Below, one piece after another: positions 34,464-40,561 of a stretch of DNA of 64,000 bases (its first letter is position 1; every line of letters begins with the position of its first letter). The notes below the pieces were generated by a model. It made no database searches. It had not been told where the DNA came from and saw only the letters and a program-made list of their open reading frames with translations. Source of the DNA: Gottschalkiaceae bacterium SANA (GTDB lineage Bacteria; Bacillota; Clostridia; Tissierellales; GPF-1); assembly GCA_036323355.1 (NCBI GenBank), contig AP028876.1:2294001-2358000 (forward strand). The letters are read 5' to 3'. Both the position numbers and the translations under genes were made by a program.

Positions 34464-35156
34464 TTACACATTTTTCAACATATCAGTAAGAATTGCAATC
34501 GAGTTCTTGATTGCCAATGGTGAAAATTTTTCATAATCCATATGACTTCCATTAATCGCATTGTCTGAGATTGAACGAATCACGACAAAAGGAATCTTAT
34601 TCAGGTAACAAACCTGGCCGATACTTGCACCTTCCATTTCACAGGCATGTGCACGAAAATGTTCACCTAAGAATTTTTGTTTTCCCGCATCACTAATGAA
34701 TTGATCTCCCGAGACAACTCTGCCTACAAAACCGTTTGCATCCTCAATCTTATCAATCGCACGTTTTGCTTTCTCCACTAAGTCTTCATCACACATAAAG
34801 TCAAAGGTATCCAATCGAGAAATTTGCCCCAATGGCATATCGAAAAAAGTAACATCCACATCATGTTGAACCAAATTGTTTGCTACAACAATATCTCCTG
34901 GGTAAATATCTTCGTTCAATCCACCTGCAATACCAACGTTAATAATTTGATCCGCTCTGAATCTATCAATCAAAATTTGTGTACATACCGCCGCATTGAC
35001 TTTCCCGACTCCACAGGTTACAACAACAACTTCATTTCCTAAAAGCTCACCAGCGTAGAAAGTCATATTGGCTTTGCTGACCTTCTCTTTTACAACCATT
35101 TCATCTTTTAGCATTTCCACTTCTTCTGCCATGGCACCAATAATCCCTATTTTCAT
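34464..35156 (-). CDS. mtnN: MTA/SAH nucleosidase
   Basis: 230 aa, the usual family length; the ATG at 35156 follows GGGGGAATTTGGGAG, and the promoter at 35198-35226 excludes the upstream start. Hydrolyses 5'-methylthioadenosine and S-adenosylhomocysteine to adenine plus thioribose or ribosyl-homocysteine. Motifs: IGIIGAMAEEVE (N-terminal Glu), VVTCGVGKVNAA, NVGIAGGL, CEMEGASIGQV and RSISDNA with the catalytic Asp. Links methionine salvage and the activated-methyl cycle to the sulfur genes further right. Monocistronic. Confidence 0.95.
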   Translation of the reverse strand: MKIGIIGAMAEEVEMLKDEMVVKEKVSKANMTFYAGELLGNEVVVVTCGVGKVNAAVCTQILIDRFRADQIINVGIAGGLNEDIYPGDIVVANNLVQHDVDVTFFDMPLGQISRLDTFDFMCDEDLVEKAKRAIDKIEDANGFVGRVVSGDQFISDAGKQKFLGEHFRAHACEMEGASIGQVCYLNKIPFVVIRSISDNAINGSHMDYEKFSPLAIKNSIAILTDMLKNV

Positions 35157-35197
35157 CTCCCAAATTCCCCCGCTTTCATTCAATACATACTCTTTCA

Positions 35198-35226
35198 ATA
35201 TTATTCGAATTCCGAATAATTAGCAA
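35198..35226 (-). promoter_or_regulatory. mtnN promoter with palindrome in the spacer
   Basis: TTGCTA (35221-35226), 17-bp spacer, TAATAT (35198-35203). The perfect palindrome ATTATTCG-5-CGAATAAT (35200-35220) fills the spacer and overlaps the -10, a classic repressor position. The regulator is not in sight. Confidence 0.7.
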
Positions 35227-35333
35227 GGTGAATTCATCCTGTTGCTAGCCACACTTTGTAAAAAGAACTCACGATCCATTTTACATGTAACCGAACAGAG
35301 TTTATCGAGAATCTATAAAGAAAATATATCTAC

Positions 35334-35789
35334 TTAATGGTTCAAGACGCCTCTTGTAATCCGTTTTTCCAAAAACTCAATAAAATCTTTTGCATACTCT
35401 TCTTCCGAGCTCAATGCATAGATGGGCATTTCATTCTCTCCACTATTCTTTGATAAGTTAAAATAGAACACATCGTCTACCGATTCACTAACCACAAGAA
35501 TATTACTCTTATACTTCTGCTTTTGCTGATAGAGTTCATGCATGTAAACAATATCGCCTTCCCGAATATTATCCAAATCCATTTCAAAAATACTGTATAT
35601 CTCTTCGCCGTGTATTTCTCCACCGCCATAAGACCTTAACCACCATTTGTAGCTTTCCGGCAAAGTAAAACCTAATCTCATTTCTGCTTTATTGATCCAT
35701 TCTTCTGATGTCCCATCGCCATATTCTGAGAATTCAACTTGATCTTTTGCAACGGATATTAACTTCTTCAATTCTACAAACCTTTCCAT
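35334..35789 (-). CDS. SMI1/KNR4 (SUKH) family protein
   Basis: 151 aa from the ATG at 35789 behind GTGGAGGGAAA. SUKH fold: AEMRLGFTLPESYKWWLRSYGGGEIHGEEIYSIFEMDLDNI, then FYFNLSKNSGENEMPIYAL. SUKH proteins are common immunity proteins of polymorphic toxins but also occur alone. Located 124 bp downstream of agrB on the same strand, so possibly read through from the agrDB promoter. No toxin gene is visible in the window. Confidence 0.82.
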   Translation of the reverse strand: MERFVELKKLISVAKDQVEFSEYGDGTSEEWINKAEMRLGFTLPESYKWWLRSYGGGEIHGEEIYSIFEMDLDNIREGDIVYMHELYQQKQKYKSNILVVSESVDDVFYFNLSKNSGENEMPIYALSSEEEYAKDFIEFLEKRITRGVLNH

Positions 35790-35913
35790 TTTCCCTCCAC
35801 TTCTCCTTACAAATATACCGATGATCGTATTCTCATCCAAACAAACCGACTAAACAGGTCGCCTCAATCTCTGACAATGAGTCTAATCTCAAAAATAATT
35901 GAACATATAACTG

Positions 35914-36498
35914 TTAATCTGTTTTCTGAGGATGCGTTAGTCTTTGCAAGTTTTTAACAGCCCAATCTATAATCAACAGTGATGCAATCAAAAAAAGTGC
36001 AAGACTCATACATGCAAAAAACTTTTCAAGTTCTAACCCGATCATCCCTATTGCTATCAAAGCATCCATACTTAAAATCAATAAGCTCCTCTTGCGATAA
36101 ACCTGTTTGTCATCGTCTTCATATGGTTTGTTCTCATTCTCCCTTGGAGCCAATATGGCAATAATTGCATATGAAGCGAGTGCTACTATTTGATAGTAAA
36201 GTATACCCATCCCGTTCATTTTCAATATGGTTAAAACACCTATGACTGTTGTGACCGAAAGTAGAAAGCAAGTCAACTGGCTTCTTGCATGGTATCCTCC
36301 TGCATAGGAACGTAAGGGGATAAAGAAGGCAAGAAACACCAAAAGGAGCCTGATTTCGTGATAGCAATAAGCAATCGCAATATAGGTGACAAGATGGTAC
36401 ACAATGATCTTAAGTTGCTTAAAGCCATAAAGATACAAATCAGACTCTTCTCTGTCAATAATTTCATGTTCGATTAAATGATCAATTATTTTTTCCAT
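35914..36498 (-). CDS. agrB: AgrB-like autoinducer-processing membrane peptidase
   Basis: 194 aa, five or six membrane segments. The accessory-gene-regulator B catalytic pair is His70 in RSYAGGYHAR and Cys77 in SQLTCFLL, with the same seven-residue spacing as the staphylococcal enzyme. It cuts AgrD after the ring sequence and makes the thiolactone. Starts 6 nt after the agrD stop with a weak AGGGCTGG site, so it is co-expressed with agrD. Downstream of its own substrate gene, reversed from the usual agrB-agrD order. Confidence 0.93.
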   Translation of the reverse strand: MEKIIDHLIEHEIIDREESDLYLYGFKQLKIIVYHLVTYIAIAYCYHEIRLLLVFLAFFIPLRSYAGGYHARSQLTCFLLSVTTVIGVLTILKMNGMGILYYQIVALASYAIIAILAPRENENKPYEDDDKQVYRKRSLLILSMDALIAIGMIGLELEKFFACMSLALFLIASLLIIDWAVKNLQRLTHPQKTD

Positions 36499-36504
36499 CC
36501 AGCC

Positions 36505-36654
36505 CTATCGATTTTTCTTTTTCAGCCTATTGGCACCTTTTGGCAATTCAGGTTGATGCGCCATAAAAAAACAACTAGAATTCACATTGACCACAGTAAC
36601 CAATAGTGCTAACGATGCAAAAATATGCGCAAACTTATACATAACTTTTTTCAT
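36505..36654 (-). CDS. agrD: AgrD-like cyclic autoinducer peptide precursor
   Basis: 49 aa, missed by length cut-offs; ATG at 36654 with a strong TAGGAGGATGGAAA. Layout is canonical: amphipathic/hydrophobic N-terminal membrane leader (residues 1-24, MKKVMYKFAHIFASLALLVT...), a core SSCFFMA (Cys28), then the recognition tail HQPELPKG and a basic end. Cleavage by AgrB after the ring would give a five-residue thiolactone C-F-F-M-A with a short N-terminal tail, close to the Listeria ring CFMFV. Ring limits are inferred by analogy. Confidence 0.9.
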   Translation of the reverse strand: MKKVMYKFAHIFASLALLVTVVNVNSSCFFMAHQPELPKGANRLKKKNR

Positions 36655-36681
36655 TTTCCATCCTCCTATTTTTATAATTTA

Positions 36682-36745
36682 ATTATATGATTTTTTCTAC
36701 ACTGTGCCGGTTTTTGTAACGAAACGTAGTCTTTTGGTAACGAAA
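36682..36745 (-). promoter_or_regulatory. agrDB promoter with LytTR (AgrA) direct repeats
   Basis: TTTCGTTAC occurs twice on the minus strand (plus positions 36737-36745 and 36716-36724), 21 bp apart, two helical turns as required by LytTR regulators. A TATAAT (36682-36687) lies downstream; the hexamer 17 bp before it (CCGGCA) is a poor -35, as expected for an activated promoter. The nearer repeat ends a few bp upstream of that hexamer. Confidence 0.82.
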
Positions 36746-36805
36746 TACTATAAACTATTATATATTCTCTGCGGAATAGTTTATTTCCTTCTATATACCA
36801 TGAAA

Positions 36806-36835
36806 TCAAAAAAAAAGAAGGGGAATATCCCCTTC
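36806..36835 (-). terminator. Terminator between agrC and agrD
   Basis: Perfect GAAGGGGA / TCCCCTTC stem, 3-nt loop, with a run of at least ten T on the minus strand, 2 nt past the agrC stop. Separates the agrAC transcript from agrDB. Confidence 0.9.
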
Positions 36836-36836
36836 T

Positions 36837-38117
36837 TCAACTTGCTACATATAAAATCACTGATGCGATAAATTTTTTATCGTCGACCTCATAATCGTAA
36901 ATACCCCTATATTTTTCAACACTTCGTTTAATATTCTCAATTCCAAAGCCATGATTGACTTTATCCTTATTACTTGTCATTAATTTTCCCCGTTGCACTT
37001 TTATATGTCCATCAAAGGTATTCTTTACATGAATAAACAACTGATCCATACTGCATCGTATTTGAATGTCAATCCTACGATTCTCCGTTAGCGTCTTGGT
37101 TCCATCAATCGCGTTATCCAATAAATTTCCAAGGATTGTGGTTAGATCAAATGCCGAAATCTGCATCTGTTCTGGAACTACAATATCTGTTGTTATCACC
37201 ACTTCACTTTGCATAGCTTCCTGTATTTTAAAATTAACGACACTATCTAATGCTGCAATACCAGTAGAAACAAATTCACCATATGAACTGCGGATATTTG
37301 AAATTTCCAACACATAGTCAGTAATATCTTTGGCATTATGTTTTTTCGCCATTGAAGTAATCGCTGTAAAATGATTATTCATATCATGTCTCAAAGCTCG
37401 AGTTGATTTTAATGATGACTGCATGACCGACAATTGTTTTTCATAATAGCGATTTTGCGCTTGAATCACTCGCTTATCAGCATTTTCTGCAAATACTCTT
37501 GAAAGACTATCATACAAATAAAAGACTGAGAAGTTAATGAACAACACACCCAACATACTCCAAATCAAATGTTTATCTTCTAAATTCTTGGAGTAAATCA
37601 AGAGCAATAAATACAATGAGATCGTTGGTATAAAAAATATACAAAACCAATAATAGCCTGGAATCTTCTTTCCTTGTCGAACACTTTTAAAGTTATTCAT
37701 GAGTAATGCAACCACATAACTGACAATTTTAATTAAAATGAGACCATAGATTGATTGAAAACGACTCTCGTGAATGATCGTTATATCAACAGCTCCCGTG
37801 ATCACAACAATTATCATTTCTATACAGAGAAAGATAATGCTAATGAAAACAATCGATAGAATACGATTCAATAAATTGGACTGATAATTGAACGTCAAGC
37901 CAAATAACAATAGTAGATTTGAAACTAACATGACAATTGGAATTTTCAAATAAAGAAAGAGTAGTGCAATGATTAAGCAATACAGCCCATAGCTAATCGC
38001 TTCCACCTTTTTATTCACATTGTCTCGTTTAAAAAAGACCATCATAAATTTATAAATTGTATAAGTCCCAAATATATTGGTGATAATAAAAGTCCATTCA
38101 AATACGCCTAAATCCAT
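36837..38117 (-). CDS. agrC: AgrC-like HPK10 sensor histidine kinase
   Basis: 426 aa. Six membrane segments in the first ~205 residues form the peptide sensor. Then a helical linker, H-box ALRHDMNNHF (His244), N-box ILGNLLDNAIDG and G-box HGFGIENIKRSVEKY of the HPK10 class. Detects the AgrD-derived thiolactone outside the cell and phosphorylates the LytTR regulator encoded just upstream. Start overlaps agrA by 10 nt (GGAGATGACTTC before the ATG), indicating coupling. Confidence 0.93.
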   Translation of the reverse strand: MDLGVFEWTFIITNIFGTYTIYKFMMVFFKRDNVNKKVEAISYGLYCLIIALLFLYLKIPIVMLVSNLLLLFGLTFNYQSNLLNRILSIVFISIIFLCIEMIIVVITGAVDITIIHESRFQSIYGLILIKIVSYVVALLMNNFKSVRQGKKIPGYYWFCIFFIPTISLYLLLLIYSKNLEDKHLIWSMLGVLFINFSVFYLYDSLSRVFAENADKRVIQAQNRYYEKQLSVMQSSLKSTRALRHDMNNHFTAITSMAKKHNAKDITDYVLEISNIRSSYGEFVSTGIAALDSVVNFKIQEAMQSEVVITTDIVVPEQMQISAFDLTTILGNLLDNAIDGTKTLTENRRIDIQIRCSMDQLFIHVKNTFDGHIKVQRGKLMTSNKDKVNHGFGIENIKRSVEKYRGIYDYEVDDKKFIASVILYVAS

Positions 38118-38836
38118 GAAGTCATCTCCTTTGAACGTTCTAATTGCATGTCACGCACCGCTTGCCTCCGTTTCTGTCCGATCGACAAACACTTGTTATC
38201 TTGCATCATAACCTTGTCATAAGAGAAAACCTTAACGTGATTATAGTTAATGATATAGGAACGATGGATTTGCAAAAAACTTTTTTGTGGCAACTCATGA
38301 AGTACGTGCTCAATGGTCCCATAAAAAAGATATTCCTGCTCCAGTGTTACAATTCGTACCTTTCGCCCTTTTGATTCAAAATAGAGAATTTTATTCATGG
38401 GGATTCGATTCATATCGTGACCCGTTTTAAAAGAAAAAATATGATTATTTTTCTTAAATAGTTTAATCGCTAGCTCTAAATCTGCAAAGATTTTTTTCTT
38501 TTCGATCGGTTTTGATAAAAAATGCAGGGGTTGAAAATCAAACAACTTTCTATCATAGCCATCTTTTCCTGAGACATAGATAATACTAGTTCGATAATCA
38601 TTCATTTCCACCCGAATTTTTTCACCAATTTCAATCCCATCCATATCCTCCATCTCAATATCAAGAAAAATCAGATCAACAGAATTTCCTTTTTTCAAAT
38701 AGGCATAGAGCTCTACACCTGATTCGAATACCTCGATTTCAAATTCACTGCGAATCATTTGCTGATACTCGAGAATCAAAGATTCAATTTCCGACCCAAT
38801 CACTTTATCATCATCACAAATTGCTATGCGTAACAA
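38108..38836 (-). CDS. agrA: AgrA-like LytTR response regulator
   Basis: About 242 aa. Receiver domain with DDD at the N-terminus, phospho-acceptor Asp in VDLIFLDIEMEDMDG and the conserved Lys in HFLSKPIEKK. C-terminal LytTR DNA-binding domain (MNKILYFESKGRKVRIVT...SFLQIHRSYIINYNHVKV). The start is taken as the TTG at 38836, five nt after AAGGTGGTGA; a longer reading to 38863 is possible. First gene of the agrAC unit; probable activator of agrDB via the 21-bp-spaced repeats. Confidence 0.9.
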   Translation of the reverse strand: MLRIAICDDDKVIGSEIESLILEYQQMIRSEFEIEVFESGVELYAYLKKGNSVDLIFLDIEMEDMDGIEIGEKIRVEMNDYRTSIIYVSGKDGYDRKLFDFQPLHFLSKPIEKKKIFADLELAIKLFKKNNHIFSFKTGHDMNRIPMNKILYFESKGRKVRIVTLEQEYLFYGTIEHVLHELPQKSFLQIHRSYIINYNHVKVFSYDKVMMQDNKCLSIGQKRRQAVRDMQLERSKEMTSWI

Positions 38837-38882
38837 AGCCCTCACCACCTTTACAAATTCCATATAACGCTAGAATACGTTC

Positions 38883-38891
38883 ATTATAACA
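38883..38891 (-). promoter_or_regulatory. Extended -10 promoter of agrAC
   Basis: TGTTATAAT on the minus strand (TGnTATAAT) with no good -35; transcript start about 40 nt upstream of the TTG start. Confidence 0.6.
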
Positions 38892-39208
38892 CAGTCGTTT
38901 TCAATTCTACCCCTTCTACTGACATCCCGTCTCACAATATGAAGCAGATCATCTATCAAGCAATGAAGTGATCTTTATGATTCCCGTCATAGTCCTTGCA
39001 GGTGATATTTCAGGCTTATTTACACGACTTATTGTCTTTTTATCAGCTTTTTATAAAGAGACTTCTCTCCCAATAAATTGAAAATAAATGTTATTCGCCT
39101 CCCGCCAATTCGGTGAGTTGCATCCGCAAATAGAAATGCCGTCTAAAAGCTAATTATTCATTCCTAAAGATATCTCGAATTTCCCCAAGTTAAAATCAAG
39201 CCTCTTCA
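38892..39208. other. Gene-free stretch between MATE and agrA genes
   Basis: No convincing gene. A plus-strand 34-codon ORF from about 38978 (MIPVIVLAGDISG...) reads like a fragment but has only a weak ribosome site. No terminator hairpin was found directly after the MATE stop. Confidence 0.5.
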
Positions 39209-40561
39209 TCAACTTACTTCTGTATGCTCATTCACTAAGTTCTGAGTTTCCTTTAGAAATCGCTTCCTACCGACTAGTGCAATCAACCCATAATTTAAAA
39301 GCAGTGCGACAGCACACAGAATTAGAAAAATAAGGCTATTCCCTTTTGCAAAGGTTGCGCAAGCCAACACAAAGGCTAATATAATCGCATTGATCAGAGC
39401 GCTACGATATAACACAAATCGACTAAGTCCTATTGCCTGCAAAGCGTATGAGTAGACTGTCGATGGAATTCTCATGAGATTGGCCAGCAGGTAAAGAAAA
39501 AATAGACTTGAAGCCAAGGAAACAACATTCAAATTCGGGTTGATCAAAGCAAAAATTGATTCCCGAAACCCAAACCCAAGTATGCCAAGACTTCCATAAA
39601 AACATAAGGCACAAGCAACTGCTAACCTTGGTATAGACTTCACCAATTGCCAATTTGTTTCCATTTTCTCACTGACAATCGTCAAGGCTGCAGAGGCATA
39701 CATAAACATAGGCATCTGTAGGATACTGATAACCTGAACAATCAGAAGATAGGATGCAAGGGCTACTTCACCCTGCCGTGAGACAATGGCGGTAATCACC
39801 ATCATAAACACATTGCTCTCCAATACTTCCAAGCCCATAATGGGCAAACTCGCCTGAAAATTCAACTTGATGCGACTCAAATACACTGTCATCCGCTTAT
39901 ATTTGAATTGAATATCTCCACTTGCCATAAGTGTATAAACCAAAAGACTCATAAGCAAAGAAGCCACTGTCGCATAACCCGCTCCCCGTACTCCCATAGG
40001 CTTAAATCCTAATTTGCCGAAAATCAGTACATAATCCAAAAGCAAGTTCATCAATGAGGCTATAAGAGACACCCACAAGATATGCTTTGTTTTTTGAATT
40101 ACCTTAAAATACGTAGTGAACGAAAAGACGAGCATTTGTATCACAATGCTCCATTTAACAATACCAAGATACGCTTCTGCATCCGACAAAATTTCACCTT
40201 GAAATCCAAAGATTCCAGTTAACAAACTCCGATGGAAGACCATGATTCCAATCAATAGAGTCCCACCCAGAATAAGACTCAATAATAGAGATGAAATCAA
40301 TTCATCACAAAAGCTTTCTTTATCTTGTCTTCCCAAGGCCCTTGATCCGTTGATATTAAAAACGATGACCGTGCAACCCATAATGCCAACTAGCATGTAA
40401 ATCAACTGATACACCGACCCCACTGCTCCAAAGGCTGAAACTGAAATTCTTCCAATCATTGCCTGATCTGTGGTGCTAATAATCATTGAACTAATGGACT
40501 GAATGATCAAGGGAATCGCCAAAGCATTCAATGATTGAATTGTACTCTTTTGCTCTTTCAT
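39209..40561 (-). CDS. MATE family multidrug/metabolite exporter
   Basis: 450 aa, twelve membrane segments in two MatE repeats (PLIIQSISSMIISTTDQAMIGRISVSAFGAVGS; LPIMGLEVLESNVFMMVITAIVSRQG). NorM/DinF-like cation antiporter. Preceded 35 bp upstream by a small membrane-anchored protein gene and located next to agr. Whether it is quorum-controlled cannot be read from the sequence. Confidence 0.9.
   Translation of the reverse strand: MKEQKSTIQSLNALAIPLIIQSISSMIISTTDQAMIGRISVSAFGAVGSVYQLIYMLVGIMGCTVIVFNINGSRALGRQDKESFCDELISSLLLSLILGGTLLIGIMVFHRSLLTGIFGFQGEILSDAEAYLGIVKWSIVIQMLVFSFTTYFKVIQKTKHILWVSLIASLMNLLLDYVLIFGKLGFKPMGVRGAGYATVASLLMSLLVYTLMASGDIQFKYKRMTVYLSRIKLNFQASLPIMGLEVLESNVFMMVITAIVSRQGEVALASYLLIVQVISILQMPMFMYASAALTIVSEKMETNWQLVKSIPRLAVACALCFYGSLGILGFGFRESIFALINPNLNVVSLASSLFFLYLLANLMRIPSTVYSYALQAIGLSRFVLYRSALINAIILAFVLACATFAKGNSLIFLILCAVALLLNYGLIALVGRKRFLKETQNLVNEHTEVS

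Follow-up and report, generated by a model that had tools for sequence, protein, structure and literature searches.

Genes of the locus

We analyzed a stretch of 64,000 nucleotides from Gottschalkiaceae bacterium SANA (assembly GCA_036323355.1, contig AP028876.1, positions 2,294,001 to 2,358,000), referred to here as the window; coordinates are counted from its first letter. Open reading frames and matches to family profiles identify four agr genes on the minus strand of the window, arranged as agrA-agrC followed by agrD-agrB:

38108-38836, minus strand: agrA, LytTR-type response regulator with a TTG start (PF00072, 56 bits; PF04397, 68.4 bits)
36837-38117, minus strand: agrC, GHKL sensor histidine kinase (PF14501, 83.3 bits)
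36505-36654, minus strand: agrD, 49-aa signal precursor (TIGR04223, 40.7 bits, cut-off 19; 13-row alignment A3)
35914-36498, minus strand: agrB, peptide-processing membrane protease (PF04647, 122.5 bits, cut-off 23)

The preliminary description of this DNA had placed a complete agr set on one strand at 36505-38836. The four family matches bear out the complete set, but agrB lies outside that interval, which therefore contains three of the four genes. The length of 49 aa proposed for AgrD was correct; the peptide matches TIGR04223, and the profile search gave no Pfam match for it.

AgrA consists of REC and LytTR domains. Its TTG start (38836) has a Shine-Dalgarno-like stretch in front, an in-frame ATG is found upstream at 38863, and agrC and agrA overlap by 10 nt. 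The HD..NH and ILGNL.DN positions of AgrC are invariant (alignment A4), as are the GGYH motif of AgrB and a Cys seven residues past its His (alignment A2); these two residues, H70 and C77, are presumably the catalytic pair. The set has the composition of an agr locus, i.e., an AgrB with conserved His and Cys, an AgrD with a central Cys and a C-terminal block, and a GHKL kinase, AgrC, paired with a LytTR-type AgrA. The window AgrC and AgrA scored far below the cut-offs of the corresponding staphylococcal equivalogs in NCBIfam. The genome search detected one AgrB, and a single-sequence search of the PDB up to E 1 returned no solved relative of it. A phage origin was considered and rejected: among phages, there was just one weak tblastn match (31% identity over 68%, E 1e-5). 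The agr locus is retained in a congener (genome G001, locus L034), the AgrB of which is 67% identical to that of the window.

The AgrD precursor and its predicted ring

We aligned 13 AgrD sequences of the window type, some of them from one and the same genome (alignment A3). All 13 share the Cys and the Q-P-x-L-P block; the His ahead of this block is nearly invariant, and the four residues following the Cys are variable. The core of the window peptide, SSCFFMAHQPELPK, is unchanged in the congener G001. The codons of the predicted ring are located as follows:

36559-36573, minus strand: predicted ring CFFMA (residues 28-32), starting at the invariant Cys that precedes the QP.LP block in alignment A3

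The predicted product of AgrD is probably a five-residue thiolactone, [CFFMA], with a short N-terminal tail. This prediction is made by analogy, because comparable rings, A[CFMFV] of Listeria and [CLWFT] of C. perfringens, are tabulated in PMC12312760; the same analogy supports the earlier proposal of a small, Listeria-like thiolactone. A third species of the genus (G002, locus L035) has a different agr locus, in which agrB is followed by agrD and the ring region reads CSILYF.

Gene order in related genomes

Matches to the window AgrB were found in 69 of 249 genomes, at 96 places. Gene order was surveyed in 83 stretches (80 fetched ones, the window and two congeners), which cover 85 of these 96 places. 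The commonest layout was agrC, a gap, agrD and agrB, seen in 26 of the 83 stretches (28 units), followed by C-B-D in 11 of 83. The agrC-agrD gaps of the survey units are 59-294 nt long, as measured to the longest possible agrD start. In a set of named genomes, made up of the best 80 loci by similarity to the window AgrC among the matches listed, 29 loci have exactly the order A-C-D-B (two of the 29 are genomes of the survey); they include Acetobacterium, Alkalibaculum, Niameybacter, Lachnospiraceae, Ruminococcus and Fontibacillus.

The window order, A-C-D-B on one strand, is the agrACDB layout of the C. difficile agr2 type, printed for C. difficile R20291 in the sections of PMC3754575 that deal with the locus. 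It is not the classical single operon agrBDCA, since the order differs and a terminator is located between agrC and agrD. The preliminary description had contrasted this order with the classical agrB-agrD-agrC-agrA operon; the C. difficile description and the commonness of the layout in relatives rule out rarity, and the A-C-D-B layout is ordinary among clostridia and already known. It should be noted that three loci (L161, L164 and L167) have a divergent agrD upstream of agrA-agrC; in two of these, agrB follows agrC.

The agrC-agrD gap

The gap between agrC and agrD is 182 nt long in the window. It contains the new part of the locus, the agrD promoter with a conserved paired site:

36814-36838, minus strand: intrinsic terminator after agrC, an 11-bp stem with a T-run (-16.1 kcal/mol, z -3.4)
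36750-36784, no strand assigned: 10-nt inverted repeat, ATAAACTATT/AATAGTTTAT, immediately preceding the boxes; the congener retains part of it
36737-36745, minus strand: first half of the direct repeat, TTTCGTTAC, putative AgrA/LytTR box (distal), 21-nt spacing; conserved in the congener and, as a layout, in relatives
36716-36724, minus strand: second half of the direct repeat, TTTCGTTAC, putative AgrA/LytTR box (proximal), with the same conservation
36703-36708, minus strand: GGCACA, close to the -35 position in the agrD promoter, with a GCACA pattern in relatives
36682-36687, minus strand: TATAAT, -10 element of the agrDB promoter, read from the sequence and aligned with the congener
36662-36667, minus strand: AGGAGG, Shine-Dalgarno sequence of agrD, read from the sequence

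This is the layout of a promoter of the AgrA/LytTR type, in which a poor -35 region is preceded by a pair of direct half-sites spaced about 21 nt. The 21-nt repeat of the window has 13 matches in 14 positions, a score that was reached in none of 2000 shuffles at lag 21, in 2 of 2000 at lags 20-22, and in 3 of 1000 when all lags of 14-35 were allowed. From the repeat through GGCACA, 43 of 46 promoter bases are identical in the window and the congener G001. The congener repeat alone is not distinct from shuffles (p 0.54 and 0.37), and the box is recognized there by alignment only.

We scanned the agrC-agrD gaps of relatives for terminators and found them in 6 of 51 (shuffle mean 0.05); the scan detected none in the gap of the congener. 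A terminator between the two units is thus ruled out as a general rule, and strictly separate transcripts are not general either, because terminators are rare. The recurring element is the agrD promoter and not the terminator. In other genomes, transcription may commonly run on from agrAC into agrDB, which would agree with the single transcript suggested for C. difficile. The proposal of two transcripts made in the preliminary description therefore stands in part: in the window there is a strong terminator after agrC and the signal unit has a promoter of its own, but the counts in relatives do not support a general two-transcript arrangement. The gap of the congener (L034, 5487-5780) is 294 nt long, and part of it holds a 63-aa ORF.

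Direct repeats upstream of agrD and agrA

For each unit, we scored the best 12-nt direct repeat within 150 nt upstream of agrD. The 62 agrD-agrB units were reduced to 58 distinct ones by removing near-identical units. Five loci present in two collections (L146, L152, L159, L160 and L163) were dropped before the pooled count; also dropped were units with an AgrD lacking the Cys in the C-x4-x-Q motif, with an agrB not adjoining agrD, or with less than 120 nt of upstream sequence. Elsewhere in the analysis, the row of L171, which had wrong coordinates, was disregarded. In 51 of the 58 units, agrC is directly upstream.

A repeat with at least 10 matches of 12 at a distance of 21 or 22 nt was found in 26 of the 58 units, compared to 1.8 on average and at most 5 in shuffles, and one with at least 11 of 12 in 16 units (shuffle mean 0.18); 32 units score below 10/12. 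When nine other lag pairs were applied to the same 58 units, between 0 and 5 units reached 10/12. Half of the later-added named genomes (16 of 32) reach this score, versus a shuffle mean of 0.8 and a maximum of 3; the pattern had first been seen in the order survey and the later-added genomes are those of related organisms, so this result is a repetition and not a fully independent test. We also scored 14 agrD promoters from the closest relatives, a set that includes the window and to which one genome contributes several promoters; a 21/22-nt repeat with p <0.02 is present in 10 of them.

The repeat was also found upstream of agrD in most units of other gene order, and so it belongs with agrD and not with the end of agrC. 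For example, 6 of the 7 units in which no agrC was found in front reach 10/12. Six usable units that had failed the filters are divided equally: L164, L210 and L220 reach this score, and L161, L167 and L187 do not (the row of L155, an edge artefact, was left out). Of the loci with a divergent agrD, L164 carries in front of agrD a 12-nt repeat without mismatch at 22 nt, and L161 and L167 score 9 and 8 of 12, respectively.

The second component of the promoter, GCACA-N14-18-TANNNT, is present in 21 of the 58 agrD upstream regions (shuffle mean 0.64, maximum 3), in 13 of the 32 later-added units (shuffle mean 0.35), and in none of 46 regions upstream of agrA. These counts are descriptive, because the pattern was written after the promoters, including those of the later set, had been viewed.

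The region in front of agrA has the following element:

38883-38891, minus strand: extended -10, TGTTATAAT, read from the sequence and identical in the congener L034

Judging by its sequence, this extended -10 is probably the agrAC promoter, and it is without a direct repeat. Upstream of agrA, 3 of 46 regions reach 10/12 at 21/22 nt, which is the background level (shuffle mean 1.7). The agrA upstream region of the window scores 9/12 (p 0.09), so that a weak site there is possible.

Sites elsewhere in the genome and neighboring genes

The perfect double site occurs once in the genome of the window and once in G001, in each case at agrD. When up to three mismatches were allowed, there were 33, 27 and 30 matches in G000, G001 and G002, compared to 38, 44 and 31 for the reversed control. 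We checked 13 of 88 imperfect matches; 12 are inside stop-to-stop frames of at least 120 codons, and L050, with three mismatches, is outside. No regulon can be claimed, because all sites but the two perfect ones at agrD are at the background level. Of the site versions of other species, that of G163 occurs once, at agrD, and those of G236 and G238 occur three times each, with five of the six places at agrD. The sixth place (G236 C49; L231, 1330-1536) has a perfect agr box and begins like an agrD, but the sequence after this start is unrelated and leads into a different reading frame and a 170-aa ORF; it is possible that this is a captured agr promoter. No RNAIII-like RNA was found, i.e., there was no Rfam match at gathering score within the 4.5 kb of 35000-39500.

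The gene that follows agrB is:

35334-35789, minus strand: gene of the SUKH/SMI1-KNR4 family (PF14568, 64.3 bits)

An ORF that is similar by eye follows agrB in the congener (L034, 6712-7167). We infer that the SUKH gene is possibly co-transcribed with agrDB from the agrD promoter; in C. acetobutylicum, an agr effector gene is directly downstream of the agr genes, according to the description of that locus in PMC10301443. Two genes after agrB there is an ORF resembling, by eye, MTA/SAH nucleosidase (34464-35198, minus strand), and the congener has one likewise. On the other side of the locus, 39209-40561 (minus strand) encodes a MATE transporter; among NCBIfam profiles it fits the tryglysin-associated WgkD best, but its 321 bits fall short of the cut-off of 510. 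The 161-aa protein adjoining the MATE gene had no Pfam or NCBIfam match. ORFs similar to both are located upstream of agr in the congener L034, with one extra gene between the MATE gene and agrA.

Probable feedback on the signal unit

The reading that we consider probable, going by the arrangement of promoters and boxes, is an agr system of two units in which AgrA~P would activate agrDB alone, so that feedback acts on the signal and not on the sensor, and in which AgrB would produce the five-residue thiolactone. The agrAC unit would be transcribed, presumably constitutively, from its own extended -10 promoter and supply the receptor and the response regulator. The agrDB unit would be transcribed from a promoter with a poor -35 region (GCACA) that is nevertheless shared among relatives, where phosphorylated AgrA is expected to bind the paired half-sites and recruit RNA polymerase. 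As the peptide builds up, agrD and agrB would be induced, and the level of the sensor would stay outside the loop. AgrB would cut AgrD behind the ring, probably yielding [CFFMA] with its short tail. The preliminary description had proposed that the signal unit can be switched on separately; this idea gains support because the repeat is conserved in front of agrD and at background in front of agrA.

The terminator data bear on a different possibility, namely that agrACDB is largely one transcript with incomplete termination after agrC, in which case the sensor would be co-induced as in the RNAII of S. aureus. The scarcity of terminators in the gaps of relatives, including the congener, is consistent with this, and so is C. 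difficile, for which PMC3754575, in its part on the locus, suggests a single transcript, given that expression of the entire locus drops when agrA is mutated; we note that this mutant result would also be compatible with an AgrA-dependent agrDB. However, the terminator of the window is strong, the repeat and the -10 element occupy the agrC-agrD gap, and upstream of agrA the repeat does not exceed background. We therefore regard co-induction of the sensor as unlikely. A constitutive agrDB, with a repeat that is there by chance or for structural reasons, is highly improbable. The congener repeat, indistinct from shuffles by itself, fits such a view, but the pooled excess is found at 21/22 nt and is absent at nine other lag pairs, and both the later-added genomes and the units with other gene orders show it again.

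If the repeat is a binding site, the identity of the binding protein has to be considered. AgrA is the obvious candidate. In S. aureus, AgrA acts at two direct repeats just upstream of P2/P3, promoters with suboptimal spacers (as described in PMC4227749), and in C. difficile, the RgaR site at spoZ consists of direct repeats of the LytTR type, in which the G residues at -51 and -72 are critical (PMC10602386, in its account of this promoter). The similarity of boxes follows the relatedness of AgrA (Mantel r 0.35, p 0.001; 20 loci), but no better than that of AgrC (partial r 0.03, p 0.36), a comparison confounded with overall relatedness; AgrA is thus not singled out as the binder. Another LytTR regulator might bind the repeat, leaving agrDB without autoinduction. 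The genome encodes three LytTR proteins, i.e., two besides AgrA, AgrA-specific covariation of the boxes was not found in the 20 loci, and there is a precedent in agrB1D1 of C. difficile, a further RgaR target that is driven by RgaR, with RgaS reported as unresponsive to AgrD1 in the corresponding part of PMC10602386. Against this, a complete agrA-agrC pair adjoins agrDB, and agrC is directly upstream in 51 of the 58 units; we consider a different regulator still less likely than co-induction of the sensor, although less improbable than a chance repeat.

Returning to activation of agrDB by AgrA, its extension to the agrD-agrB layout of Clostridia is more tentative, and we would put it somewhat below an even chance: autoinduction could be confined to the signal through paired LytTR boxes and GCACA, with a loop that is nearly private. 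If this is true, agrDB would be nearly the only strong AgrA site in the examined genomes, and output would go through weaker sites or operon neighbors. The location of the feedback is important because it decides the bistability of a quorum switch, the speed of its firing and the recruitment of non-sensing cells. The promoter signature as such is well supported by sequence comparison; in open-access papers, we found no literature on such boxes upstream of agrD in agrACDB loci, for which the signature is apparently undescribed. It makes signal-only autoinduction testable across Clostridia, and a conserved signal-only feedback promoter would be a testable rule for many clostridial agr loci. The paired boxes are also a simple means to look for agr targets in these loci.

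Comparison with known systems

One of the closest known systems is C. difficile agr2, which has the same order, agrACDB, a LytTR-type AgrA and an AgrD of 46 aa, but differs in the single transcript suggested for it (the locus description in PMC3754575). Its autoinducing peptide, NSA[SSWVA], is listed under agrB2D2C2A2 in the table of PMC12312760. In C. acetobutylicum, the signal and sensor units are likewise two operons, agrBD and agrCA (PMC10301443, in the part on the agr genes); however, the order is B-D followed by C-A, and the ring tabulated in PMC12312760 has six residues, [CVLVTL]. The agrBDCA locus of S. aureus has the same four functions, and its AgrA acts on two direct repeats at promoters with suboptimal spacers (the promoter description in PMC4227749), whereas it forms one operon, has the sensor inside the loop and uses RNAIII as effector (as outlined in PMC8748961). 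The agr system of Listeria monocytogenes is alike in its five-residue hydrophobic ring, A[CFMFV], and different in its order, agrBDCA (both as entered in PMC12312760). Finally, the promoters with RgaR/VirR-like boxes in C. difficile also have direct repeats of the LytTR type, and at spoZ the key G residues are 21 nt apart; in contrast to the window locus, RgaR belongs to an orphan two-component pair, presented in the RgaR passages of PMC10602386 as lacking autoinduction and as having several other targets.
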